Source: Methylococcaceae bacterium
Lineage (GTDB): Bacteria > Pseudomonadota > Gammaproteobacteria > Methylococcales > Methylococcaceae
Direction: 5' to 3'
DNA: 44,644 nt
Assembly: GCA_004299145.1 (NCBI GenBank)
Contig: SCQD01000136.1
Coordinates: 1 to 44,644 of the forward strand
Numbering within the stretch: position 1 is the first letter of the stretch; each line of letters begins with the position of its first letter. Made by a program: the position numbers and the translations under genes. This document shows positions 23,640 through 39,594 of the stretch, piece by piece. The notes below the pieces were generated by a model. That model was not told where the DNA came from. It ran no database searches and saw nothing but the letters and a program-made list of their open reading frames with translations.

Positions 23640-23858
23640 GTTCCGCTCGTTCCCAAGCTCCGCTTGGGAACGCAGTGCGGGAAGCTCCAGCTTCCGCTCG
23701 TTCCCAAGCTCCGCTTGGGAACGCAGTGTGGGAAGCTCCAGCTTCCCGATTAGGCGCGGAATGCCGGCAAACGTGACCAGGGAAACCCCGGTTTTCCGAT
23801 CAAACACGGGAAGCCGGAGCTTCCCGGGCCGGGTTCCCAACCCGGAGGTTGGGAACCA
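23640..23858. repeat. Cluster of dispersed palindromes at the 5' end of the NodT-family gene
   Basis: A 51-bp unit is present twice (from 23648 and from 23699), each with CGTTCCCAAGC-TCC-GCTTGGGAACG and a GGAAGC-TCCA-GCTTCC hairpin. Further hairpins are GGGAAGC-CGGA-GCTTCCC (23808-23825) and GGTTCCCAACC-CGGA-GGTTGGGAACC (23832-23857). 51 is a multiple of three and no copy contains a stop in the gene frame. The same motif families occur at 11.8, 31.5 and 42.3 kb. Confidence 0.85.
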
Positions 23859-23902: not shown

Positions 23903-26365
23903 CTAACCCGCCTTGCTGGAGATTTTAATGGGCACGATGACGCTGGATGGCGCCGTATGGATGTGATTGGCGTCCGCCGCCGGGTTGGCGCGCCGGTTCG
24001 GGGTTTTATGCCGGGACGAGGCCAGATCCAGATTCAGCAACGGAAAGATCATGTAGTTGATCAATAACAGCCCCATCAAGCTAAGCGGCCAGAACGCCAG
24101 CCAGAAGGCATAGGTCGCCTGAAAGTATTCGACGGCGCGCATGATGCGGATTTGCTCGGCGGTATGGGCGAGATAATCGGCATATTCGCCGGCGTCGAAG
24201 GCTTTCAGGAAACTGAGTAGTTGGAAAAACTCGCCGCTGCGCGATTCTTCATAGGCACGCCGTAAAAATACGTTGAGTGCTTTCAAGTGACGTTTGTGGA
24301 ATTGCGGGTGAGCCGTGCCGTGGGTTTGCGCCATGTAAAACACCACGTCTTCGATATTCTCCGCTTCCTGCGGCAACGTCATGTGCGGCACGATATAACG
24401 CCACAGACTGGGGCGGCTATGGTGGACGTCGTAAACGTGGTTGAGGTAATGCAGCAATACGCTCAGCGATTCCGGGGTATCGATGGCGATCAGCGCGTTC
24501 AGCGCCTGGGTTTTTACCGACAATTCTTCGGGCGTGTGCTGCAAAGTGGCGATCAGGCTTTGCACGGCGGCTTTTTCCGCATCGTCGTGCCAGGCGGGAG
24601 CGGCATCGCCCAGCATCGACCAACCGCTGTCGCCGTCGTTCAAAATCAAATCAATGAGGTAGAGCGCTTTTTGTTTATCCGCGACGCCCGCCAAGGCGAT
24701 AACCGCATAAGCGCGGCCAAACGCATCGGAATCGCTGCGATAGTTTTGCAGCATGCGCACGATTTCGGTGAATTTGGGGTCGTTGGAGCCCTGGGTATCC
24801 AGCAAGGCGAAATTGCCGGCCGCGATGGCCGCCAGACGGCGCACCTCGGGGTTCTGGTCGCGCATCAATTCGAAAATCAGCGGCAAGCTGTACGGATTTT
24901 TCCATTCCGCCAATTGCCAGGCCAGGTTGGCGCGCACCGCCGGATTCGGATCGATCAACAGATAATCCAGGCCATCGCTGTAGCCTTGCCTTAACAGGCC
25001 GCGTATTTCTTCATAGTGCGCCATGGGCAAGCCCATGAGCGCCGTGCCTGCCGGCGGCGGCGCGTTTTCGCTCGCCAGTTTCAGCAAACCGCGCCGGATG
25101 TATTCCTGTTCAAACGAAGCGCCGGCTGATTTTTGCAATGGCGGGTATTTGTCGCGGTTGAGAAAGTCCGGGATGGATCTGGCCTCGGCCACGCCGTACA
25201 AAGGCCGCACGCTGACGCCGAAACGGGTTTGCAGAAAGTCGTCCAGTTTGGCTTGCGAATAAGTGACGTGGGAAATGGTTTTTCTGCGGTAATCCAGCAA
25301 GGGTTGCAACGCTTCCGCGCCGATGCGGCTCAAACCCCGCAATACGGCGTCGCGTTTCGCCAGATAAAGGCCGAGAAAATCCTGGTTGAGGCGCTTTTGG
25401 CGGGGATATTCCGCGTCCAGATCGGCGTAAATATGGATCAACGGGTGCACCAGGCGCACATCGCCGGCAAAGCGGCGCACCATAAAATCGATAAATTCGA
25501 TTTTATGGGACTCGTCGACCTTATCGTCCGCCAGCAAGCCCAGCAGGGCATTAAAGCGCTCGTCGGCTTGGCGTTTTTTGAACGCTAGTTCGTCGTTATC
25601 CAGCAAGTTCCAGGTTTCCAGCAAGGTGTGATAGCGCGCCTTGGAAATGGCGTTTTCGCGCAGCAAATCGTCGATATTGCGCCGATCCAGGGCGTGGCGC
25701 CGCATGCTGGTGCCGTTCACCGAAGCCGCGTTCAATTGGGCCAGCATCTCCGACAGCTCGCGCTCCTGCCGCTCTTTTAGCATTTGTAGTATTTCGCGCA
25801 CCCGCGAATCCTGATGCATCAGGGGCTGCAATTCATCCCAGTTGATAGTCGTGCTATTGGGTGTCGCCGCTACGGCGTGTAAACGTTCGCTTTTTTCTGT
25901 TGCCGCCGTTGAAGCCCCCACATTCCCAGGCTGGGCAAGCGGCGGTAAACCCAGTATCCCGAGTTTATGCGGCGCGTCTTCCGTTAAAGACAACGGTTTG
26001 GGCCGATTCCATGAAATGGCTGAAAACGCGTCATCGTTATAAGGAATCTGGGTGGCGCTGTACAAATAACCGCCCATAACCAGCAGCAACACCAAGAGAA
26101 ACTGAATGAACAGCTTTTCCCATAAGCCGCCGCTAAACAGGCGGTACAGCAGATTTGCCGCGAGAAAAACGCCGGCGCCCAGTTGCAGCGGGGCCGGCCA
26201 GTGCAGCAGCAGCGGCTCGGTCAGGATGACGATGCAGCAGGATACGATGACAAAATAGAGTATCAGGCTGAGTATGGTTTTATCCTGCCGGGATTTGGTC
26301 TTGTGCTGGAACACCAATAGTGCAACAGCCGCCATCAGCGCAATCAGAGTGGTAAACAGCGTCAT
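23903..26365 (-). CDS. Membrane protein with large HEAT-repeat-like periplasmic domain
   Basis: 820 residues, family not recognised. Four hydrophobic helices lie in the first 105 residues (LFTTLIALMAAVALLVF; ILSLILYFVIVSCCIVIL; QLGAGVFLAANLLY; FIQFLLVLLLVMGGYLY) and one near the C-terminus (FWLAFWPLSLMGLLLINYM). Basic residues after helix 1 (KTKSRQDK) and after the last helix (SSRHKTPNRR) place about residues 106-745 in the periplasm. That region has helical repeats of HEAT type, e.g. PNPAVRANLAWQLAEWKNP and QNPEVRRLAAIAAGNFA. It starts 5 bases after the amidotransferase-like gene and ends 2 bases before the NodT frame, so the three are one operon. Confidence 0.7.
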   Translation of the reverse strand: MTLFTTLIALMAAVALLVFQHKTKSRQDKTILSLILYFVIVSCCIVILTEPLLLHWPAPLQLGAGVFLAANLLYRLFSGGLWEKLFIQFLLVLLLVMGGYLYSATQIPYNDDAFSAISWNRPKPLSLTEDAPHKLGILGLPPLAQPGNVGASTAATEKSERLHAVAATPNSTTINWDELQPLMHQDSRVREILQMLKERQERELSEMLAQLNAASVNGTSMRRHALDRRNIDDLLRENAISKARYHTLLETWNLLDNDELAFKKRQADERFNALLGLLADDKVDESHKIEFIDFMVRRFAGDVRLVHPLIHIYADLDAEYPRQKRLNQDFLGLYLAKRDAVLRGLSRIGAEALQPLLDYRRKTISHVTYSQAKLDDFLQTRFGVSVRPLYGVAEARSIPDFLNRDKYPPLQKSAGASFEQEYIRRGLLKLASENAPPPAGTALMGLPMAHYEEIRGLLRQGYSDGLDYLLIDPNPAVRANLAWQLAEWKNPYSLPLIFELMRDQNPEVRRLAAIAAGNFALLDTQGSNDPKFTEIVRMLQNYRSDSDAFGRAYAVIALAGVADKQKALYLIDLILNDGDSGWSMLGDAAPAWHDDAEKAAVQSLIATLQHTPEELSVKTQALNALIAIDTPESLSVLLHYLNHVYDVHHSRPSLWRYIVPHMTLPQEAENIEDVVFYMAQTHGTAHPQFHKRHLKALNVFLRRAYEESRSGEFFQLLSFLKAFDAGEYADYLAHTAEQIRIMRAVEYFQATYAFWLAFWPLSLMGLLLINYMIFPLLNLDLASSRHKTPNRRANPAADANHIHTAPSSVIVPIKISSKAG

Positions 26366-26370
26366 AGGAT

Positions 26371-29300
26371 TTATGCGGCTTTTGCGAAGTCATCGCCATG
26401 ATTGGCGTCCAGATTGCGGGTTAAGAAACCTCGCTGTTCTTCACTCAGTAACGTGGTAGGCAAACTGATTCGATAATCCTGTTTGGCGTTATCGATGACC
26501 AAGTGTTCAACACCGTCTATCAAGCGCAGGCCGCCGATAAATTTGTCGGCTGTTCTGTCTTTACTGACACTGACCAGCGTGCCGCTTTCCCAACCCGCGC
26601 CGGGTTGCAGCCATATTTGCGGCGGCAAATGGGAGCGGTCATTCCCTCGACCAGCCCGGGACAGGCTCTGGCCGCCGTGCAGGCGGGACGCCTGCGCTCC
26701 CAGGGCGGGGTTGAAAGTGATGCTGACGGCGTTGTCGAAAAAGGCGAACACCGCGAAAGCCGCGTCGTCGGCCGGGATGCTTTTGTTGAACGACTCCAGC
26801 ACGGAGCGGGGCGCCATGGTGTCGACGTGGATGTCCATGGGCGATACCGGATGCTTGGTGGACTGGATTTGCGCCTGATTGGCGGTATCCGCTGCCCCGG
26901 TCAGGTTCATCAGGTCGATGCCGTAGTTCAGCAGGGTTTGATAAATGGCGAACGATCCGGGTATCCAGCGCATCACTTCCCAAACGGCGCGGTTCACCAA
27001 GGCCTTGCGGCGTTCGCCGATGACGAATTCGACGACCAGACCATCCGCCAGGTCGATCAGCCGGCGGTTGATCAGGCGCAGCGTTTCCGGCGACAGTTTT
27101 TTTTCGTATTTTTGCCGCAGCGGTTCCAGGCTGTCGGACAGCACGGTTTGGTAGGGCTTGGCGGCGTGATCACGCTCGCTGCGGTTCATGTAATACGAGC
27201 CGTGCCGGACTTTGTCGCGCGATTGGGGCTGGCCGTGGTTGAAGCGTATGCCGCCGATTTGCGCGAACACCATGTTTTCTTCCGCCGCGTTGTTGGCTTC
27301 TTCAACGCCTAAGCGTTCGTCCGGCGTGCGGTGGATGGTTACCACGCCGCGATGCGCGCGGATACCGAAGCGGTGCAGTGCGTCCTGCACCGTGTCGGCC
27401 CAGTAGAAATATGGAGTCAGAAAAGCCGGCGCATTGGAAAACAGCGTGGCGTTATAGCGCTCTATCATGCGGGCGATATAGCGGCGATCGATATACAGTT
27501 CCGCCCTGGCGCCGATGCGCTCCAGCACCGGCCGTCCCTGCCAATGGCGGATGCCGCAGTGGATCAGCCACAAAGCGGACAAAAACAGGGCGGCGTCCAA
27601 TACGTGCGCGATAAGGCCGATGCCGCCGATGAATTGCAGCGGCGCGCTGAGCACGCCGAAGATCGGCACGCCGAACACGGTGGCGATGACGATGTAACCG
27701 GCGAAAATGGCCCAGGCGCGCACGAATTCGATGTTGTTTTCCGCCCGGGCCTGCGCCTCGGCTTCCAGGGCGGCGCTGTCGGGCGTGTCTATAGCCCATC
27801 CTTCGGCGGTATGGCCGACCCGGTTGGGGATCTCGATCTGATAAACGGCGGTTTGGAAGTCGCGGAACGCCTGAATGTCGATCCATTGCAGGTCGTGGCG
27901 GATTTCCAGCTCCCTACCCAGGAACCTCTGGTTGAAGACAGTTCCCTCTCCCCTCGGGAGAGGGAGCCCGAAAGCATCGGTTTCTGAGTGCCGTTCGGTG
28001 TGGAAAACGCGCTCGGGTAGAGAGCCTAAAGCCGTGTCTCTGCCAGGGGTATGGGGATAGACGCCATGTTGGGTTTCTCGCAATTCCAGCGCCCGCTGAG
28101 TCAAGCCGATCAGAATTTCCGTCAACACCGCCTGGGTGGCCACCGGCACCAGGGTAGCGGCTTCCGCCCGGCGCCGGCCGCAGCTGCCGTCCGGGGCCAG
28201 GTGGCTCAAGTTGAGAAAGGTATTGGGCAGCAACGGATCTTCGGGATGGTAGCCCTGGCCCAAAGCCTGGCTCATCGAGTTCAGCGCGCTTTGCGTCAGC
28301 ACGAAACAGCGCTGTGCGCCGACCAGATCGCGGGCTTTGCGCAGCGCCGCCAGGGTGGACTGGGTTTGCGCCGAATTGCTCACGCCCAGAAACAGCGTTT
28401 TATCGCCGTAGCTGCCGATGCCTTCCCGCTTGCTGCGCTTCATTTCTTTGAGCACGTTGCCGGAATTTTCCGCGCGGATGCGCAAGCCGGGCAGGATGGA
28501 GCGCAGCGCCAAGGCAAATTCGCCGATCAGATCCTGATTAAAATCCACGCCAAACAGCACCAGGTCGTGTTTACCGGGGTCGCGCCGCGGATCGAGCAGG
28601 TTGCCCAGCACCAGGCCGCAAAAATTTTCCAGGGTGGCGTGGTTTTCGCCTTGCGGCGCGAATGATTGCACCACGCGCTGCAGGTTGTAAGGAATGTCCT
28701 GGATGTCCCGTTCCACCTCGGTGCCCGGCACTTCCAGCCGGGTATAGCGGTCGATTTTCGGGTTGTGGTTGATGGCGAACCAGTCGCAGCGCAGCGCGCC
28801 CGTAGCGGCGGGATGATCGTCCAGCAGCGTGCCGGGCGCGGGCTGCGGCCGCCGCGACAAATCGTCGCTGGGCTCGGCCCGGTTGTAAATACGGATCGGG
28901 TCCATGCCCGGCAGCGGGCTGTAATCCACCGTGGCGTATTGCCCGTCTTCCAGATAAATCTGCACCGCGTCGTCGTCGGGATTGCCGCGCTGCAAGGCGG
29001 AGGTGACGCCTTGCGGTTCGGCGCTGCCGAAAATTTCGCCCAGCGTGCGGTTGTGGCCCAGCGAAAACGCCTGGGTCAGCGAAAAAATCCCCAGACGTGG
29101 CTCCAGCGTGGTGCATACCATCAGGGCAAACTCGCCGACCAGATCGCGCGAAGCGCGCCGCATCACCCAGGCCAAATCGTGCCGGTAAAACGCATCCTCG
29201 AATGCCGCGATAAACCGCGTGGCAGTCGCTTCGTTCATGTGGCCCTGTACGCAATCCAGCACGGCGGCGCGTACTTTTTGTTTGGCGGCTTCGCATAAGT

Positions 29301-30735
29301 CTTCGATGGATTGAGCGCGCGAAAGGTCATGGCCTTTTAATTCCCTCACCCCAACCCTCTCCCGGGGGGAGAGGGAGCCGGCAGGTTCCTGGGTAAGGCC
29401 GGGGCGAAGATTTAGGCAGTGTTCACCCAATTCCGCGCGCGCTTTGCTGATCGCCAGGTCGACGGCTTCCGCCCAGGTATACAGGCGGAACAAATCGAAT
29501 TTATGCCGGCAAATCTCCTGGTTGAAGTCCAGCGCCGAGGTGAAGGCGGCATAGCGCAAGGCTTTATAGGCCAAGCCCTGGGTGTAGACGAAGTCCACCC
29601 ATTCGGCCACGCTGCGCGAGTCGGAATTGCCTTGCGAGGTGGTGGAAGGCATGGCCGCCGTGAGTATGGCGCGGGCTTCCATCTGGCTGAAATAGCGCCG
29701 TTCGGTCCGCTGGTCGATGCAAACGTCCAGGTGCACGCCGTCCATGTCGCCGTTGTGGGCGATCATGTTGAACACTTCGCCGTAGTGGCTGACCAATTGC
29801 CCGTTTTCGACGCGGTGATGCATCATCCAGTCGAAATGTTCATACCAGTGCGGCTGGGCGTTATGCCAATGGGTGGCTCCGCCGGTGGCGTAGCGCAGGT
29901 GCAACAAGGTCACTTCAAAGCCGCCGGGCCGGCTATAGCCCTCTTTGGCGGCTTTTTCCAGCAGCTTGCCCAGTTTGCCGCTGATGACCTTGACGATGTC
30001 TTCGCGTTTGCCTTTGACGGCTTTGTCGAAAATGATCGACCAAGCCTGGAGCTTTTTGACGATGATGGAGAATCCCCCCGATTGCCCGCCCCGGGTGGAG
30101 GCTTCGCGCGCCAATATTTCCACCAGTTCCCGCAGCCGTTCGGACAGCAGCGGCGCCGGCGCATCCGTATCCGGCAGTTTATAGCGCACGGCAAACGCCG
30201 GCCCGCAAGCCCAATAAGGCGCATGGCCCTGGATGAAAGCCGTCAGATCCGGCACGGACCACATGGCCAGCAGGGAGCTGGCCATAAACCCCAGCAGCAT
30301 GACCAGCTCCGGTGCCACGACAGACCCGTCGTGCGCCCAGACGGCATAAACGCAGCCGGCGATGACCATGCCGATGGCGTTCATCAGCGCGCCGCCCACC
30401 GCGACCAGCCGGTATTGCCACGCGGCTGCGAGGGGCCGGGCCAGGCGCGGCGGGTTGTCGGAAAACTGCGGCAGCGGATGCCAGGGCAACAAGCTCAGCG
30501 CGAGTTCCTTGAGTTTGATGCCTTCCAGCAGCGTTTTGCCGTCGAAGGCGGAGCGTTCGCCGGTAACCGCGTAAAGGCACAGCGCATGGCCGAGACCATG
30601 TAACAGCAGTGCCGGTACGTTGCCCCAGCGCAGCGGCAGGCAGGCCAGCGCCAGGACAAGGCGTCCCGCCCACAGCAGGCCAGGCAAAAAAATATTATCG
30701 GTAGGCGGTATGACCGTTCGCGGCTTGGTAGGCAT
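26371..30735 (-). CDS. Membrane-embedded GlmS-like protein: amidotransferase-fold plus SIS core
   Basis: 1454 residues. Order: hydrophobic N-terminal domain (about 15-170), class II glutamine amidotransferase-like domain, SIS domain, two hydrophobic helices near 1010-1060, and an unassigned C-terminus. Amidotransferase marks: ACGPAFAV with Cys177 in the place of the catalytic N-terminal Cys, RGGQSGGFSII at 215, RYATGGATHWHNAQPH at 281, AHNGDMDG at 326, and VQIYLEDGQYATVDY near 597. SIS marks: DIQDIPYNLQRVV linker, then VLFGVDFNQDLIGE and FLGVSNSAQTQSTLAALRKARDL near 740-800. Class II enzymes need Cys at the very N-terminus, so this domain is either matured by cleavage or inactive. Residues about 446-466, 892-944 and 1344-1379 coincide with dispersed DNA repeats. 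No function is claimed. Confidence 0.65.
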   Translation of the reverse strand: MPTKPRTVIPPTDNIFLPGLLWAGRLVLALACLPLRWGNVPALLLHGLGHALCLYAVTGERSAFDGKTLLEGIKLKELALSLLPWHPLPQFSDNPPRLARPLAAAWQYRLVAVGGALMNAIGMVIAGCVYAVWAHDGSVVAPELVMLLGFMASSLLAMWSVPDLTAFIQGHAPYWACGPAFAVRYKLPDTDAPAPLLSERLRELVEILAREASTRGGQSGGFSIIVKKLQAWSIIFDKAVKGKREDIVKVISGKLGKLLEKAAKEGYSRPGGFEVTLLHLRYATGGATHWHNAQPHWYEHFDWMMHHRVENGQLVSHYGEVFNMIAHNGDMDGVHLDVCIDQRTERRYFSQMEARAILTAAMPSTTSQGNSDSRSVAEWVDFVYTQGLAYKALRYAAFTSALDFNQEICRHKFDLFRLYTWAEAVDLAISKARAELGEHCLNLRPGLTQEPAGSLSPRERVGVRELKGHDLSRAQSIEDLCEAAKQKVRAAVLDCVQGHMNEATATRFIAAFEDAFYRHDLAWVMRRASRDLVGEFALMVCTTLEPRLGIFSLTQAFSLGHNRTLGEIFGSAEPQGVTSALQRGNPDDDAVQIYLEDGQYATVDYSPLPGMDPIRIYNRAEPSDDLSRRPQPAPGTLLDDHPAATGALRCDWFAINHNPKIDRYTRLEVPGTEVERDIQDIPYNLQRVVQSFAPQGENHATLENFCGLVLGNLLDPRRDPGKHDLVLFGVDFNQDLIGEFALALRSILPGLRIRAENSGNVLKEMKRSKREGIGSYGDKTLFLGVSNSAQTQSTLAALRKARDLVGAQRCFVLTQSALNSMSQALGQGYHPEDPLLPNTFLNLSHLAPDGSCGRRRAEAATLVPVATQAVLTEILIGLTQRALELRETQHGVYPHTPGRDTALGSLPERVFHTERHSETDAFGLPLPRGEGTVFNQRFLGRELEIRHDLQWIDIQAFRDFQTAVYQIEIPNRVGHTAEGWAIDTPDSAALEAEAQARAENNIEFVRAWAIFAGYIVIATVFGVPIFGVLSAPLQFIGGIGLIAHVLDAALFLSALWLIHCGIRHWQGRPVLERIGARAELYIDRRYIARMIERYNATLFSNAPAFLTPYFYWADTVQDALHRFGIRAHRGVVTIHRTPDERLGVEEANNAAEENMVFAQIGGIRFNHGQPQSRDKVRHGSYYMNRSERDHAAKPYQTVLSDSLEPLRQKYEKKLSPETLRLINRRLIDLADGLVVEFVIGERRKALVNRAVWEVMRWIPGSFAIYQTLLNYGIDLMNLTGAADTANQAQIQSTKHPVSPMDIHVDTMAPRSVLESFNKSIPADDAAFAVFAFFDNAVSITFNPALGAQASRLHGGQSLSRAGRGNDRSHLPPQIWLQPGAGWESGTLVSVSKDRTADKFIGGLRLIDGVEHLVIDNAKQDYRISLPTTLLSEEQRGFLTRNLDANHGDDFAKAA
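26679..26695. repeat. Dispersed palindromic repeat inside the amidotransferase-like gene (3' copy)
   Basis: GCAGGCG-GGA-CGCCTGC, a perfect 7-bp stem with a 3-base loop, inside a longer repeat-like stretch (about 26600-26705). It is translated as part of ALGAQASRLHGG, a peptide typical of translated copies of this repeat. The local protein sequence lacks the character of the flanking domain. Confidence 0.6.
27943..27965. repeat. Dispersed palindromic repeat inside the amidotransferase-like gene (middle copy)
   Basis: TCCCTCTCCC-CTC-GGGAGAGGGA, a 10-bp stem with a 3-base loop. It is the same family as the copy at 29355 and is translated as LPLPRGEGT, between the SIS domain and the C-terminal helices. 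Confidence 0.65.
29355..29375. repeat. Dispersed palindromic repeat inside the amidotransferase-like gene (5' copy)
   Basis: CCCTCTCCC-GGG-GGGAGAGGG, a 9-bp stem, within a repeat stretch of about 29340-29400 that begins CCCTCACCCCAACCC. It is translated as GSLSPRERVGV, interrupting the amidotransferase-like domain around residue 455. Confidence 0.7.
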
Positions 30736-30801: not shown

Positions 30802-31203
30802 CTATGAGCACAGTTGCTGGGCTCGGCCACTGACCGCTTGCATGGCCCCGCTGCCGTCCACCCGCCAGCGATAGTGCAGTTCCATGCTTTTGCTGACCAT
30901 GAAAGCGCGCTCCACGTCATAGCCGTTATCCAGAGCAAACACGCGCCAACCCAGGTCGCGATGACTGGGTTTCAGGCTGTGGTCCATCCATTGCTCAACC
31001 GTTTCCCCCGCTTTGCAGGGCTGGTTTTTGACGATTTGTTCCGCGTCCGTCTGACTGGCGACGGCGGCGGGAGCGGCGCTGGACAGTGCGCAGAGCAGCA
31101 GCGCCAGCGGCATCAGCGTTCGTTTTGCCCTGGCACCTCCGGCCGGCATGGCGTGGTGCGGGCGGGTGTTGATGTGCGTGCCGGTGAGGATGTTGTTGTT
31201 CAT
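30802..31203 (-). CDS. Small secreted protein of unknown function
   Basis: 133 residues from ATG 31203. A long basic n-region is followed by KRTLMPLALLLCALSSAAPA and AVA-S, a Sec signal peptide. The mature part is about 80 residues with two Cys (NQPCKAGE near its start, AQQLCS at the end) that could form a disulfide, and the conserved-looking core LGWRVFALDNGYDVERAFMVSKS. Not recognised. It is the first gene of the operon with the amidotransferase-like, HEAT and NodT genes (66 bases before the next start), so it probably works in the periplasm with them. Confidence 0.65.
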   Translation of the reverse strand: MNNNILTGTHINTRPHHAMPAGGARAKRTLMPLALLLCALSSAAPAAVASQTDAEQIVKNQPCKAGETVEQWMDHSLKPSHRDLGWRVFALDNGYDVERAFMVSKSMELHYRWRVDGSGAMQAVSGRAQQLCS

Positions 31204-31304
31204 GGCGGATTCTGCTCCCAAATTGAAAAGGTAACGGTCGATGCTGCCCGGTGCTGCGGCCAGTTGTCATGCACGCACCAAAACAGAGCGTTATTTTTTT
31301 ATGA

Positions 31305-31319
31305 GCACGAAACAAGTGC
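31305..31319 (-). promoter_or_regulatory. Operator-like palindrome GCAC-N7-GTGC, site 1
   Basis: GCAC-GAAACAA-GTGC. It lies in the leader of the four-gene operon, about 95 bases downstream of the putative start of transcription. One of three equal sites within 192 bases. Confidence 0.5.
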
Positions 31320-31451: not shown

Positions 31452-31466
31452 GCACCAACGAAGTGC
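31452..31466 (-). promoter_or_regulatory. Operator-like palindrome GCAC-N7-GTGC, site 2
   Basis: GCAC-CAACGAA-GTGC, 8 bases upstream of the -35 hexamer at 31438-31443, a usual place for an activator. Confidence 0.5.
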
Positions 31467-31481
31467 AAAAAAATATTTAAC

Positions 31482-31496
31482 GCACCACAATTGTGC
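31482..31496 (-). promoter_or_regulatory. Operator-like palindrome GCAC-N7-GTGC, site 3
   Basis: GCAC-CACAATT-GTGC. Its centre is 30 bases from that of site 2, about three helical turns, so two dimers could bind the same DNA face. Confidence 0.5.
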
Positions 31497-31504
31497 GCTT
31501 ATAT

Positions 31505-31551
31505 CGTTCCCACGCTCCGCGTGGGAACGCAGCCCTGGACGCTCTGCGTCC
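31505..31551. repeat. Dispersed palindromic repeat upstream of nadD
   Basis: Two consecutive hairpins: CGTTCCCACGC-TCC-GCGTGGGAACG (31505-31529) and GGACGC-TCT-GCGTCC (31537-31551). The same pair of motifs, in variant form, occurs at 11.9 kb. Confidence 0.8.
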
Positions 31552-31653: not shown

Positions 31654-31722
31654 ATGATTACCTGGGATGAAGCGAAGCGGAAAAACATGAAATCAGACGT
31701 TTTACCCATGGGGAAACATTGA
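31654..31722 (+). other. 22-codon leader ORF overlapping the nadD start, possible BrnT remnant
   Basis: Reads MITWDEAKRKN, then MKSDVLPMGKH and a stop whose A is the first base of the nadD ATG. The first eleven residues resemble the N-terminus of BrnT-type toxins (DUF497), after which the similarity stops. It could be a truncated toxin gene or a coupled leader peptide. No ribosome site is evident, and the predicted start of transcription lies almost at its ATG. Confidence 0.3.
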
Positions 31723-33877: not shown

Positions 33878-33966
33878 ATGATTATCCATGGCTCATCGAT
33901 CGGGTTTGCCTCTTAATTGCCATCCACGCCGAACCGGCGCCGCACTTTTCTTTGCCTGCTGAATTC

Positions 33967-36834
33967 ATGCGCAATCGTTTTATTTTGCCGGTGGCGGTCG
34001 CCCTCGCTTACTGGCTGTTTGCCCGCCTGGGATTGTTGCTGGCGGTGCCGCCAGGGTATGCGACTGCCGTGTGGCCACCCTCGGGCATAGCCTTGGGTGC
34101 CGTATTGGTGTGGGGATGGTGGGCTTTGCCGGGGGTGTGGCTGGGGTCTTTTTTGGCCAATGCGCTGACGGCTTTCGATATTGCCGCGCCGTTCAGTTCT
34201 TTGCTGGTTCCGGCCGGTATCGGGGTTGGCGCGCTGTGCCAGGCGGGCCTGACGGCTTACGCCATTCGGCGCTGGGTGGGATATCCCACGGCTTTGGCGA
34301 CCGATGGCGAGGTTTTGCGTTTTTTGGCGCTGGCCGGGCCGCTGGGCGGCTGCATCAACGCCACGCTCAGCGTCAATTTACTCTGGCTGCTGGGCCGCAT
34401 GCCGTGGATGGACTTTGCCGGCAACTGGGCAACCTGGTGGGTGGGCGATACCATCGGCGGCCTGATTTTTACGCCCTTGTTGTTGATCGGCTTCGGCGAA
34501 CCGCGCGCCGCCTGGCGTAACCGCAGCAAGTCGGTGGCGCTGCCGTTGTTGATGAGCTTTTTGATGGCCACGGCTTTTTTTGCCTATGCACGCAAAGCCG
34601 AACACCAGCAACAGACACAGGAATTCAAACAGACCGCCGAGCTGGCTTTCAACGCCATCGATGCCGAGTTGAACCGCTACAGCACGGCGGTGTGGTCTTT
34701 GCGCGGCTTGTTCGATGCTTCGCAGTTTGTGGACAGGCAGGAGTTTCAGCGTTTTGCCCAAACGCTGCTGGAGCGCGAGCATGGGTTACAGGCCCTGTCC
34801 TGGAATAAGCGCGTCACCCATGCCGAGCGTGCTTCGTTCGAACGGGCGCAACAGTCCGGCGGGCTGAGTGATTTCGCCATTCGGGAGCAGGATGCCCAGG
34901 GCAGGCTGGTGCCGGCCGCCAGCCGGGATGAATACGTGGTGGTGACTTACATCGAGATTCTGGAGGCCAATCGCCCCGCGCTGGGCTATGACGTGGCCTC
35001 GGAAGCCGTGCGGCTGACGGCGCTGCAAAACGCGCGGGACAGCGGCGCCATGGCGGCCAGCGCCCCTTTGTTGCTGGTGCAGGAATCCAGCGTATTGGCG
35101 CGGTCTTTCGCGCCAGCCGGGCAGCAAGCCCGGCAACATTTCGGCGTTTTATTGTTCGTGCCGGTCTATCGGCACGATGCAGTGCCGGACAGCGTGAACG
35201 GGCGGCGCAGTGCAGTGACGGGATTTGTCGTCGGCGTATTGCGCCTGGACCGCGTGCTGGATACGGCGCTCAAACCGTTGGTGGCACAGCGCCGCTTGTT
35301 GCGTTTGCGCCTGGCCGATGCGGACGCAGGGCTGGCTCAGCAGGCGCTGTATGCCGATGAAGGATTCAGCGCCGGCGCCGCACTGAACTTCCGGCAGATT
35401 TTGGCCGTGGCTGGGCGGCGCTGGTTATTGGAAGCGTCCAGTTCGGAAGTGGGGCTCGTGCAAAGCTGGACCACCTGGTACGTGCTGGCGGGAGGACTGT
35501 TGTTCACCGGCCTGCTGGGCGGGGTTTTATTGCTGCTGACCGGCCGCACCCTGCACATGGAAACTTTGGTGCGGGCGCGTACCTCTGAATTACTCGACAA
35601 TAACCGGCGATTGCAGGTCGAAATCGCGGAGCGCAACAAAACCGAAGCCGCTTTGCGCGAGAGTGAGCACAGCTACCGGCTGGCCAAGGAAGCGGCGGAG
35701 CAGGCCAGCCGGGTAAAAAGCCGGTTTTTGGCCAATATGAGCCACGAAATCAGGACGCCCATGAATGCCATCATCGGTTTCAGCGGGTTGGGGCAGGAAT
35801 GCAACGCTCCCGACGATGCGCGGGATTATTTCGAGCGCATTCATCTCGCCGCCGAAAATCTGCTGGGCATCATCAACGATATTCTCGACTTTTCCAAAGT
35901 GGAAGCCGGTGAAATGAAGCTGGAATCGGCGGAGTTCCGCCTGGCTGATCTGGTTGGCGCCGCCACGGACTTGATCAAGCCCAGGCTCGCTGAAAAGGGC
36001 TTGTCATTGCGGGTGGAGGTGGCGCAGGAACTGTCCGGTACTTTGCTGGGCGATGCGCTACGTATCCGCCAGGTATTGGTGAATTTGCTCAATAACGCGG
36101 TCAAGTTTACCCGGCAAGGCGGGGTGGAACTGCGGGTGGAGCCGGGAGCGGCGCAAGCCGGCGGCTTGGTTCAGCTGCGCTTTGCGGTACAAGATACCGG
36201 CATCGGCCTGGAAGACGCGGCTTTGCAGCGGCTGTTTCAGCCGTTTACCCAGATGGACGCCTCCACCACGCGCAAGTATGGCGGCACCGGCTTGGGTTTG
36301 GCCATTTGCCGGCAACTGGTGCAGTTGATGGGCGGTGAGATCAGCGTGACCAGCCGTCCCGGAGCCGGCAGTTGCTTTACTTTCACCGTGCTGGTGGGGA
36401 AAGTGGCGGTCGCAGCACCTGCCGCAGCACGGGAGCAGCCCGGGCAGCAAGCTGCCCAGGCCGAGTCGTTGCGCGGGCGGCGCGTGTTGCTGGTGGAAGA
36501 TAACGAGGTCAACCAGCTGGTGGCCGGCAAGATTCTGGCGCGCCTGGGGTTGATCGTGGACATTGCCGCCGACGGCAGGCAAGCGCTGGCCGCGCTGGCT
36601 GCTCAAGCTTATCAGTGGGTGCTGATGGACATACAAATGCCGGTGATGGATGGGCTGGAAGCCAGCCGCCATATTCGGCAGGATGAGCGGTGGCGGCAAT
36701 TGCCCATCATCGCCATGACGGCCCACGCCATGCTGGATGAAGTGCAGGAATGCCTGGACGCCGGCATGAATGACCACATCGCCAAACCCATACACGCCGA
36801 TGACTTGATGCGCGTATTGGTGAAGTGGTTGTGA
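33967..36834 (+). CDS. MASE1/CHASE hybrid sensor histidine kinase with receiver
   Basis: 955 residues. Multi-helix MASE1 membrane domain (about 1-200, [16 protein letters not shown] being typical), an extracytoplasmic CHASE domain (about 220-500, e.g. [15 protein letters not shown]), a further helix near 510, coiled coil, HisKA with [19 protein letters not shown], HATPase with N box [13 protein letters not shown] and G boxes DTGIGL and [10 protein letters not shown], and a receiver [13 protein letters not shown] with phospho-Asp in [12 protein letters not shown]. It lacks an HPt, so it needs a partner for phosphorelay; the next kinase has one. ATG 33967 is chosen over TTG 33952. Confidence 0.9.
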
Positions 36835-36902: not shown

Positions 36903-37532
36903 ATGACTAACCCTACCCGCACCATCAATCTCGGCTTCACACCGGAACGTTTTTCCGAAGGCTGCCATATGTGTTACATCTACAACGACGAAATCGAACG
37001 CCGCGAAGTCATGGCGCGCTTTATCGAAAGCGGCGTGGCGGATGGTGAATACGTTTTTTACCTGGTCGACTCGATGCCGAAAGCCGAAATGCAAGCGCAT
37101 CTGCAACAGATGGGGATACATTTGCCGCCGGCTGCCGACGAGCGGCGTTTCGACGTGCTGCAGGCTGAAACCACCTATTGCCCCGAGCATGCGTTTTCAC
37201 CCGAGACCATGCTGGATACGCTGAAAAGCCTGTACGAGCAGAGCGTGGCCGATGGTTTTGCCGGCTGTCGCGGCATGGGCGAAATGACCTGGGCGCTGCG
37301 CGGCATTCCAGGCTCGGAGCGGTTGGTTGAGTATGAGTCCCGCATCAACATCGTGGTGCGCACCCATCCTTTGACGGCGATCTGCCAGTATGACGCCAGC
37401 CGTTTCGACGGCGCGACGATCTTCAATATTTTGAGCGTGCACCCGATGATGGTGGTGCGCGGACAAGTGGTGAAAAATCCTTATTACATTCCCCCCGAAG
37501 AGTTTCTGGCCAGACACGCCGTCACCGTCTGA
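36903..37532 (+). CDS. MEDS domain protein
   Basis: 209 residues, one MEDS (methanogen/methylotroph DcmR sensory) domain. [37 protein letters not shown] is the N-terminal block; the middle has [40 protein letters not shown] and the end [33 protein letters not shown] proteins act as sensors for small molecules, proposed for one-carbon compounds. It ends 4 bases before the next kinase start, so the two are coupled and it probably feeds that kinase. Confidence 0.85.
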
Positions 37533-37536
37533 AGAC

Positions 37537-39594
37537 ATGGAAGCTTTATCCATACAAGCCAATGTGCTGGGGCATTTGCTGGTCATCCAGCAGACCCTGG
37601 ACGTCATGCCGAACGTCCAGGGCGTGGCCTCCTTCTTGTGCGAGGCTTTGCGTAAAATTCCGGGGGTGGGGGCGGCTTATCTGTGCGTCGATGGGGAAAT
37701 TTATCCGCCCGGCGACAGCTTTAAACGGCAGGATAAATGCGGGGCAGAGCAGGCGTGCGACAGTTTTCAGTTTGACGATACCGCCATTCCCAGCCTGTAT
37801 ACGCTGCCGTTGCGGACTTCGCGCCATCAATACGGCTGTCTGGCGCTGCAAATTGCCGATAATACCCTGTTCGAACCCTACCGGGTATTTATCGACAATA
37901 TTGCCAATACGGTGGCGCAATCGCTGGAAAATCGCAAACATATCGCTCAGCTTAACGAGCTGAACCAGGATATGGTGAAGCACGTGCAGGAGAAAACCGT
38001 CGAACTGCTCGCGGCCAAGGAGGCGGCGGAACAAGCCGCCAAGGCCAAAACCAATTTTCTGGCGAACATGAGCCACGAAATCCGCACGCCCATGAACGCC
38101 ATCATCGGCTTGTCGCACTTGGCGCTGGAACACGTGCAGGACGCCAGGCTGCACGATTATCTCAGCAAAATTTACAGCGCCTCGCAGTCGCTGCTGGAAA
38201 TACTCAACGATATTCTCGATTATTCCAAGGTCGAGGCCGGCTGCCTGAACATCGAATCCGCTCCTTTCCGGCTGGATGACGTGCTGGATCACCTGCACAC
38301 GCTGTTTGCCCTGCGCGCCGAAGAAAAACGCCTGGCCTGGCGCATGGATATCGCCCCCGGCGTGCCGCGTCGGTTGCTGGGCGATGCGTTGCGCTTGCGG
38401 CAGATCTTGGCCAACCTGATCGGCAATGCCATGAAGTTTACCGATCAGGGCGAGGTGCGTCTGAGCATCGGGTTGGCCGATCAGGCGCCGGTTGATCTTG
38501 ACAGCCGGGTTCGCCTCGTTTTCAGCGTCCAGGATACCGGCATCGGCATGACCCAGACGCAAGTGGCCGCTTTGTTTCAACCCTTCATGCAAGCCGATGA
38601 TTCGATTACGCGCCGCTTTGGCGGCACCGGCCTGGGATTGGCGATCAGCCGCGAATTGCTGCATTTGATGGGCAGTGAGTTCAGCGTAGCCAGCCTGTTG
38701 GGACAAGGCAGCACGTTTCGTTTCGAGTTGACGCTGGGGGTGGTGGCCGGGGCCGGTGGAGCATCGACTCAGGATGAAGCCGAATCGGCGCGGTCTGCAC
38801 GCGCGCCTTCGCCACCGCTGAGCAAAAAAGCGCGCTGCTTGGCGGGTAAGCGCATTCTGGTGGCGGAAGATAACGCGCTCAATCAGCAGGTGGTGCGCGA
38901 GATGCTGGAACTGCTGGGTTGTCGCGCCATTTTGGTGGGCGATGGCTGGGAAGCTTTGGCGGCGCTGGAGCTGGAGGCTTGCGACGCGGTGTTGATGGAC
39001 GTGCACATGCCGAGGATGGACGGCTTGGAGGCCACCCAGCGTTTGCGCGGCCAGTCCCGTTATCAGCGCCTGCCCATCATTGCGCTGACCGCCGATGCCA
39101 TGCCCGAAGAACGCCGGCGCTGTTTGTCGGTCGGCATGAGTGATTTTTTGACCAAACCGGTTTCATCCGAAGCTTTATTCGCCGCCTTGCATCGTTGGGT
39201 TTGTCCGCACGAGAACTGCGATGTTTTATGGGAGCCTGCCATGCCAAGACCCGCACCACAACCCGCCACGGCGGAACTGGATTTCAGCCATTTGGGCGAA
39301 CTGGCCGAAGACCCGGCGTTTATCGAACAGCTGTTGCAGACTTTTCTGAGTAATTTCGAGCATTTTGCCGAGGATCTGCCCCGGCATTTGACGGCGGGTG
39401 ATTGGCCGAAAGCGCGTCAGCGGGTCCATGAGCTGAAAGGCGCGGTGAGCAATATCGGCGGTACCAGGCTGCGCGAGGCCTGCATGGCGCTGGAGCAGGA
39501 ATTGAAGCACGAAACCTACAGCCAGGCCAGACTGGATGCGGTATTGCGGGGATTGGCCGAGGTTCAGTCGATTTGCAGCGGTTTTCACCCGTGA
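37537..39594 (+). CDS. Hybrid histidine kinase with GAF-like input, receiver and HPt
   Basis: 685 residues, soluble. A GAF-like N-terminus (about 15-135), a coiled coil, His[26 protein letters not shown] near 170, HATPase with [19 protein letters not shown] and [10 protein letters not shown], a receiver [14 protein letters not shown] with Asp in [12 protein letters not shown] near 488, and a C-terminal HPt with the phospho-His in [12 protein letters not shown] near 632. All steps of a phosphorelay are therefore present. It is coupled to the MEDS gene upstream. No response regulator with an output domain is in the window. Confidence 0.9.

Follow-up and report, generated by a model that had tools for sequence, protein, structure and literature searches.

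A GlmS-type amidotransferase core within a large methanotroph membrane protein, possibly a glutamine-responsive module linked to an outer-membrane channel

P0001 carries a GlmS-type core within a 1454-residue membrane protein

The 44,644-nt contig SCQD01000136.1 of a Methylococcaceae bacterium (assembly GCA_004299145.1; the whole contig is hereafter called the window) encodes P0001, a large membrane protein in which a class II glutamine amidotransferase (GATase) region is followed by a SIS domain, as in GlmS. P0001 heads a conserved three-gene set that includes a gene for an outer-membrane lipoprotein. We tentatively propose, with a probability of about 0.38, that the set encodes a nitrogen-regulated envelope complex, in which a GlmS-derived cytoplasmic module would respond to glutamine and control an envelope channel. 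Among the entries listed in literature searches, read as listings and openings of abstracts, no description of this protein appeared.

P0001 is laid out as an M50-like N-terminus, a class II GATase, SIS-1, a transmembrane hairpin and a conserved C-terminal half:

26371..30735, minus strand: P0001 open reading frame (ORF), 1454 amino acids with an ATG start, membrane protein
30226..30735, minus strand: putative degenerate M50 site-2 protease-like membrane domain, residues 1-170, with H46-G-L-G-H50 ... N119 ... P162-D163
28861..30207, minus strand: class II GATase-like region, residues 177-625, with a helical insert at about 390-530
30205..30207, minus strand: codon of Cys177, the GATase nucleophile equivalent, Cys in 12/12 sequences and aligned with the first Cys of GlmS and PurF-type ORFs
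28066..28758, minus strand: SIS domain of the GlmS SIS-1 type, residues 660-890, by profile and fold matches
27562..27708, minus strand: predicted transmembrane hairpin, residues 1010-1058, by hydropathy
26836..27540, minus strand: highly conserved C-terminal half, residues 1066-1300, possible SIS-2 remnant

A first-pass annotation had read the GlmS block order within this membrane protein, and that reading held. All motifs are present in order, from C177 GPAFAV through R215 GGQSGGFS and R281 YATGGATHWHNAQPH to H327 NGDMDG, followed by VQIYLEDG (ending at G598) and a SIS stretch with S786-N-S-A-Q-T791. Hydropathy places hydrophobic segments both ahead of Cys177 (40-58, 110-128 and 143-161) and beyond the SIS domain (1010-1028 and 1040-1058). 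Residues 860-878 also exceed the hydropathy threshold, and because they are located in the SIS domain we read them as a buried helix rather than a membrane segment. The large soluble parts of P0001 are predicted, from simple hydropathy and a charge count, to be cytoplasmic.

To class II GATases belong a Cys nucleophile, a conserved Arg, an Asn-Gly pair for the oxyanion and an Asp. In P0001, C177, G178, R215, G216, R281, N328, G329 and D372 are identical in 12/12 genomes, the GATase half of a gene split over two contigs being represented by L056. Cys177, Asn328 and Gly329, which the first-pass annotation had singled out, thus show no free variation. A MAFFT alignment with five of the 12 family members places the Cys, Arg and Asn-Gly on those of GlmS and of a PurF-type ORF, and D372 was matched to the class II Asp through an SDS motif read by eye. 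Tyr282 and Gln294 agree with the PurF-type ORF (L040), not with GlmS. Since the catalytic and glutamine-binding residues are kept in all 12, the GATase looks catalytically competent by sequence, and nothing marks it as dead.

Direct searches with P0001 were uninformative: Pfam at E 1 recognised no family, PDB sequences gave none but chance matches with the single protein and with profiles (E 0.86 and 1.7), and the NCBIfam glmS models scored far under their cut-offs (NF001484, 13.8 bits vs 381; TIGR01135, 11.7 vs 418.05). Pfam GATase_2 reached E 0.13-0.2 in 2/12 family members, under its cut-off. We therefore ran hidden Markov models (HMMs) of residues 177-400, 177-625, 660-885 (SIS) and 177-885 (GATase plus SIS) against 1590 distinct ORFs, 13 GlmS yardsticks among them. 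GlmS headed the non-family matches for the GATase and the SIS region and made up 8/10, 9/14, 9/14 (including the five best) and 12/14 (including the four best) of those listed, respectively. The best non-family E-values (0.05, 0.19, 0.023 and 0.018) are weak, and the GlmS ranking therefore counts more than any single value. Profile comparison with a GlmS alignment (hhalign) gave E 0.00088 for the SIS part and 0.0056 for the GATase part, as single comparisons with probabilities of only 23 and 6.5%.

An AlphaFold2 model of residues 1-960 had a mean predicted local distance difference test score (pLDDT) of 62.9, good for the SIS domain and poor for the GATase. Its top Foldseek match was E. coli GlmS (E 2.6e-6, 729 columns), and GlmS chains covered 724-739 columns. 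The SIS region matched SIS domains with Z about 18 (VIA-align). SIS domains dominate the fold-search lists, and the N- and C-terminal parts of P0001 are barely probed by fold. Taken together, the fold search, the profile ranking and the kept residues support P0001 as a GlmS-type GATase plus SIS-1, the GATase fold being less certain than the SIS; on the GlmS-like core, all three agree with the first-pass annotation.

P0001 is not the housekeeping GlmS, because the same genome holds a separate one above the cut-off: model positions 1-533 match with 751 bits at the end of one contig, and positions 582-607 lie on a different contig. That genome also has a further class II GATase ORF, the 503-aa L040, which we take to be PurF from its length and motifs.

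The sugar-phosphate half looks altered

The SxSxxT phosphate loop of the SIS domain is kept, with S786, S788 and T791 in 12/12. The Thr-Ser of the GlmS 'CGTS' motif aligns with a Val-Asp that is likewise invariant (12/12). Because of this exchange, and because no isomerase site is found in the C-terminal half, the sugar-phosphate half is plausibly catalytically dead. The first-pass suggestion of a dead domain thus fails for the GATase, whose residues are kept, and stays plausible for the sugar-phosphate half.

Conservation is high across residues 945-1310, and mean column identity is 72% in the C-terminal half vs 40% in the N-terminus. Against GlmS SIS-2, the C-terminal half gave a non-significant hhalign E of 0.78, and an HMM built from it matched no GlmS ORF (n = 13); for these reasons, we do not claim a second SIS domain. 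GFAT structural alignments extend to model residues 656-659, corresponding to 1285-1288 of P0001, on low-confidence residues. In Pfam, the C-terminal half has a weak holin-family match (best E 0.0077, 4/12 members), which we read as similarity of the transmembrane hairpin.

The region before Cys177 and the M50 resemblance

Ala176 directly precedes Cys177 in 12/12 sequences, and no start codon stands immediately ahead of the Cys. A free N-terminal Cys177 would need cleavage, because the Ala176-Cys177 pair is invariant and 176 residues lie upstream. PurF and GltB have propeptides. Activation by cleavage before Cys177, which the first-pass annotation had offered as one explanation, is possible and compatible with the sequence. 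A lipobox or signal-peptidase cleavage at Ala176-Cys177 was dismissed because the GATase side is predicted to be cytoplasmic.

M50 proteases carry an HExxH motif and a later Asp as zinc ligands. In residues 1-170 of P0001, H46, G47 and H50 are kept in 11/11 covering sequences and D163 in 12/12, and the position of the catalytic Glu is Gly in 11/11, giving HGxGH instead of HExxH. Pfam Peptidase_M50B matched 2/11 members across HGxGH (E 0.0016 and 0.049; best 18.7 bits vs a cut-off of 26), and the same scan of the N-terminus brought up three other, unrelated families, once each, at E 0.18-0.52. With an N-terminal profile run against 2115 ORFs, RseP-type ORFs came only third and fourth among the non-family matches (E 0.34 and 0.47). 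We regard the resemblance to an M50 domain with a lost catalytic Glu as weak and suggestive only.

The window genome also encodes two M50 proteins with intact HExxH, L110:2293-4422 (minus strand; 709 aa) and L111:3093-5246 (plus strand; 717 aa). Both have a HlyD-like C-terminal part by eye and adjoin HlyD-like ORFs.

P0001 heads a conserved gene set in Methylococcales

Relatives of P0001 occur in 12/311 Methylococcales genomes and 6/50 genera. In a class sample (1/369) and a phylum sample (1/398), the only genome with P0001 was the window's own; among the genomes sampled, relatives were found only in Methylococcales. An exact-peptide scan of contig records, which reaches close relatives only, returned 6 loci, and plasmid records returned nothing. 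Named records with P0001 are Methylococcus capsulatus, Methylobacter sp., Crenothrix polyspora, a Methylococcaceae bacterium and an 'uncultured proteobacterium'; M. capsulatus Texas (ATCC 19069) carries the gene set. In the 12-sequence alignment, the other sequences share 59-71% identity with the window P0001, and those homologues that no contig end truncates have 1346-1421 aa.

P0001, P0002 and P0003 are consecutive in 12/12 loci with P0001 at the head, and a further small gene, P0004, lies upstream in the window:

23903..26365, minus strand: P0002, 820 aa, with four N-terminal transmembrane segments, a HEAT-repeat domain and a C-terminal transmembrane segment
22119..23606, minus strand: P0003, NodT/TolC-type outer-membrane lipoprotein (TIGR01845, 295.8 bits vs a cut-off of 210.05)
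30802..31221, minus strand: P0004, small predicted exported protein directly upstream of P0001, with two Cys invariant in 6/6 aligned copies

P0002 matches HEAT_2 at E 2.3e-18, and simple hydropathy with a charge count predicts that its HEAT part is periplasmic. Beyond Methylococcales, the P0002 profile matched 4/312 genomes besides its own, and these were not accepted as relatives: all are local matches, and the two that were read look like HEAT-repeat protein kinases. The true start of P0003 is probably residue 99 of a 593-aa ORF; copies of a tandem repeat of about 51 bp (23641-23746, minus strand) make up part of the start of that ORF, and a 29-bp piece related to this repeat lies at 31504-31532. 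In 4 other loci, a homologue of P0004 stands close to P0001 or to amt. Neither the conserved neighbours scanned nor the 12 window neighbours scanned included a HlyD adaptor, an ABC pump or an RND pump.

P-II and ammonium transporter genes accompany the set

A P-II gene stands beside the operon in 8/12 loci. Four are canonical (two called through Pfam and two through alignment) and four are divergent P-II-like genes called through BLAST alone, in M. capsulatus and in three further genomes of its genus. The ammonium transporter gene amt lies within the analysed locus in 7/12 (three through Pfam, the rest through BLAST), so that P-II and/or amt is nearby in 9/12. The three loci with neither are the window over its whole 44.6 kb, L030, whose contig starts inside P0001, and L031, a 6.6-kb contig. 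The three amt genes of the window genome are on other contigs, and that genome has an amt-P-II pair at L102.

P-II lies before the operon, divergent from it or after it; because three different arrangements are seen, the linkage has outlived rearrangement. At L036, amt, P-II, P0004, P0001, P0002 and P0003 follow one another on one strand. The divergent P-II-like gene directly follows P0003 at L033:15483-15836 (plus strand) and occupies the same place in L034, L037 and L029. With the canonical P-II of L036 these genes share 35-38% identity, and by eye the usual T-loop sequence is missing. The ORF L033:15468-15902 (minus strand), at first a P-II candidate, was rejected as a wrong-strand shadow of the real gene on the plus strand.

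NtrC-type palindromes are enriched upstream

The NtrC core consensus is GCAC-N7-GTGC, and we fixed this pattern before looking. The window contains three such sites, all upstream of P0004-P0001, in an intergenic stretch shared with a divergent gene at 31719:

31305..31319, no strand: NtrC-type palindrome GCAC-N7-GTGC
31452..31466, no strand: NtrC-type palindrome GCAC-N7-GTGC
31482..31496, no strand: NtrC-type palindrome GCAC-N7-GTGC

Ten 350-bp upstream stretches held 13 sites, with at least one in 7/10 loci: three in the window, two in each of four Methylococcus-genus loci, one in L035 and one in L036 (before amt). As close relatives, the four Methylococcus-genus loci weigh little more than one. 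In the same stretches, eleven control palindromes matched in composition and four variants in spacing occurred 0-1 times each. The background in other loci was 7 sites in 223,471 bp. One of these lies 150 bp upstream of the amt-P-II pair of the window genome (L102), the only background site before amt; another lies inside an amt ORF (L104), and the remaining ones are at unrelated places. L033 and L037 have further palindromes 142 and 170 bp upstream of where the alignment to amt begins. Some operon-locus sites do not fit a regulon, three being in coding sequence (L034:18516, L036:13740 and L035:324) and one elsewhere (L029:18818).

The E. coli glnA, glnL and glnK promoters are NtrC targets. 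As a positive control, 9.5 kb of E. coli K-12 around glnA-glnL and glnK-amtB gave four sites, two before glnA and one each before glnL and glnK. Compared by hand, one of the E. coli glnA sites is identical in every letter to the opposite strand of the first L034 site. A simple scan with the sigma-54 consensus, which does not exclude a site, found no match of at least 8/11 before the window P0001/P0004 or before P0001 elsewhere, and only weak matches elsewhere in the loci. From these sequences, the operon looks nitrogen-controlled.

The window copy carries extra in-frame stretches

Alone among the 12 sequences, the window P0001 carries 87 extra residues in frame, at 443-471, 891-916, 924-938 and 1354-1370:

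29323..29409, minus strand: in-frame stretch 443-471, a dispersed palindromic repeat that none of the 11 other homologues has
27922-28065, minus strand: in-frame stretch, 891-938 region, extra residues absent from the 11 other homologues
26626-26676, minus strand: in-frame stretch 1354-1370, absent from the 11 other homologues

The DNA at 29320-29424 has 47 matches in the window genome, itself counted, and a predicted hairpin (no shuffle control). It seems that the coding sequence of P0001 has taken up dispersed palindromic repeats without a break in the frame. Comparable in-frame repeat insertions are the Rickettsia palindromic elements.

Elsewhere in the window, a MASE1-CHASE hybrid histidine kinase (33952-36834, plus strand) is followed by a MEDS/DcmR sensory-domain protein (36903-37532, plus strand) and a hybrid kinase with an Hpt domain (37537-39594, plus strand).

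Interpretation and alternatives

In P0001, a GlmS-derived and apparently competent GATase core is part of a membrane protein whose conserved gene set extends to the outer membrane. We speculate that P0001 would form the inner-membrane and cytoplasmic core of an envelope-spanning methanotroph complex with P0002 and the channel P0003, a complex often joined by P-II, the ammonium transporter and P0004. The GATase-SIS module of P0001 would bind glutamine and might hydrolyse it slowly. Nitrogen status would be signalled by glutamine occupancy, possibly in combination with P-II and with a sugar phosphate bound by the SIS domain, and P0001 would relay this signal via its membrane segments to P0002 and to the channel, much as GlnK signals to AmtB. 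If true, envelope traffic would be tied in a new manner to the status of glutamine in the cytoplasm, in methanotrophs, where methane oxidation interacts with ammonium. We are more doubtful of the fuller picture of an undescribed envelope machine, in which the glutamine-sensing core, together with an inactive M50-like domain, would control the TolC-type channel via the periplasmic HEAT protein and act alongside Amt/P-II in nitrogen acquisition or in the traffic of nitrogen compounds.

Several points weigh against a glutamine-responsive complex. We infer glutamine binding, gating and complex formation, and the topology and the M50-like domain are predicted. The conservation of the Cys, Arg, Asn, Gly and Asp fits an active enzyme too. 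The window contig holds neither amt nor P-II, 3/10 loci tested (L027, L028 and L032) have no palindrome, and the upstream stretches have no good sigma-54 -24/-12 site. The fold match to class II amidotransferases proposed by the first-pass annotation stands as far as E. coli GlmS leads the Foldseek list; it does not extend to a confident GATase model, with pLDDT of 30-70 in ten-residue blocks across residues 170-390, or to a good GlmS superposition, with template modelling scores (TM-scores) of 0.13-0.29 and root mean square deviations of 19-25 Å.

The set might instead encode an active membrane-bound amidotransferase that is cut at Ala176-Cys177, by autoprocessing of the N-terminal nucleophile type or by a protease, hydrolyses glutamine with the freed Cys and passes ammonia to a sugar phosphate or other acceptor, with the product leaving through the HEAT/NodT channel. 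The invariance of C177, R281, N328, G329 and D372, of the Ala ahead of the Cys and of the SxSxxT loop would suit this enzyme, as would the outer-membrane protein in every operon (12/12). However, the Thr-Ser of CGTS is Val-Asp in all 12, SIS-2 or an isomerase site was not found by sequence, the cleavage is putative, and hydrolysing glutamine under nitrogen limitation would presumably be costly. We consider such an enzyme possible but somewhat unlikely, and a glutamine sensor or gate more likely than a glucosamine-6-phosphate synthase. The glutamine-responsive reading is favoured over an active amidotransferase because the GATase looks competent by sequence, the sugar-phosphate half looks altered, a separate GlmS is encoded in the genome, the set extends to the outer membrane and the operon has the look of nitrogen control. 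The nitrogen-control context, which the first-pass annotation had not seen, likewise favours the glutamine or sugar-phosphate sensor that it had raised.

The main function could also reside in the N-terminus, as a pseudo-protease that binds zinc and regulates a substrate in the membrane, and for which the GATase-SIS part would sense metabolites. The zinc-ligand positions H46, H50 and D163 are kept, the Glu position is uniformly Gly and Peptidase_M50B matches weakly, but the M50 link consists of two sub-threshold matches and a reading of motifs, the competing Pfam families and the low rank of RseP-type ORFs speak against it, and the N-terminus is the less conserved part of the protein; we think this improbable. 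Slightly more improbable still is that the set serves export without any link to nitrogen, the neighbourhood and the palindromes being incidental. NodT is an efflux outer-membrane family, three loci have no palindrome and the amt genes of the window genome are on other contigs, whereas the recurrence of amt or P-II near the operon in varying order (9/12 loci) and the enrichment of palindromes over matched controls argue for a link to nitrogen. The in-frame insertions could mark the window P0001 as a decaying gene, yet every insertion preserves the frame, the ORF stays open across 1454 aa, the catalytic residues are all kept and the operon is intact, which makes decay very improbable. The glutamine-responsive complex is directly testable, because the set comprises few genes and a named strain, M. 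capsulatus Texas, carries it.

Comparison with known systems

With the M50 site-2 proteases and Peptidase_M50B, P0001 shares HxxxH and a later Asp within hydrophobic helices; it differs in the exchange of the catalytic Glu for Gly and in its sub-threshold Pfam score. The NodT/TolC-dependent tripartite exporters, including M50-HlyD-like fusions such as the two in the window genome, have a NodT-family outer-membrane lipoprotein in common with the set, but their adaptor and pump components are absent from the scanned neighbours of P0001. The GATase half resembles that of PurF in Tyr282, Gln294 and, by eye, the SDS motif, and is followed by SIS instead of the phosphoribosyltransferase domain of PurF.

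The closest likeness in domain order is to GlmS/GFAT, with class II GATase motifs, a linker and then SIS-1, the same GATase catalytic residues and the top Foldseek matches. GlmS is free of membrane segments and has the Cys at its start, in agreement with the GlmS ORFs used as yardsticks. Unlike GlmS/GFAT, P0001 has 176 residues before the Cys, a helical insert in the GATase and a transmembrane hairpin after SIS-1, lacks a recognisable SIS-2 and has changed sugar-contact residues. To our knowledge, a large GATase-SIS membrane protein, a periplasmic HEAT protein and an outer-membrane channel are not known parts of the GlnK-AmtB pair. What the P0001 set has in common with that pair, itself the subject of earlier studies (for example, PMC3831643 and PMC3198391), is its linkage to amt/P-II genes and its NtrC-type promoter sites.

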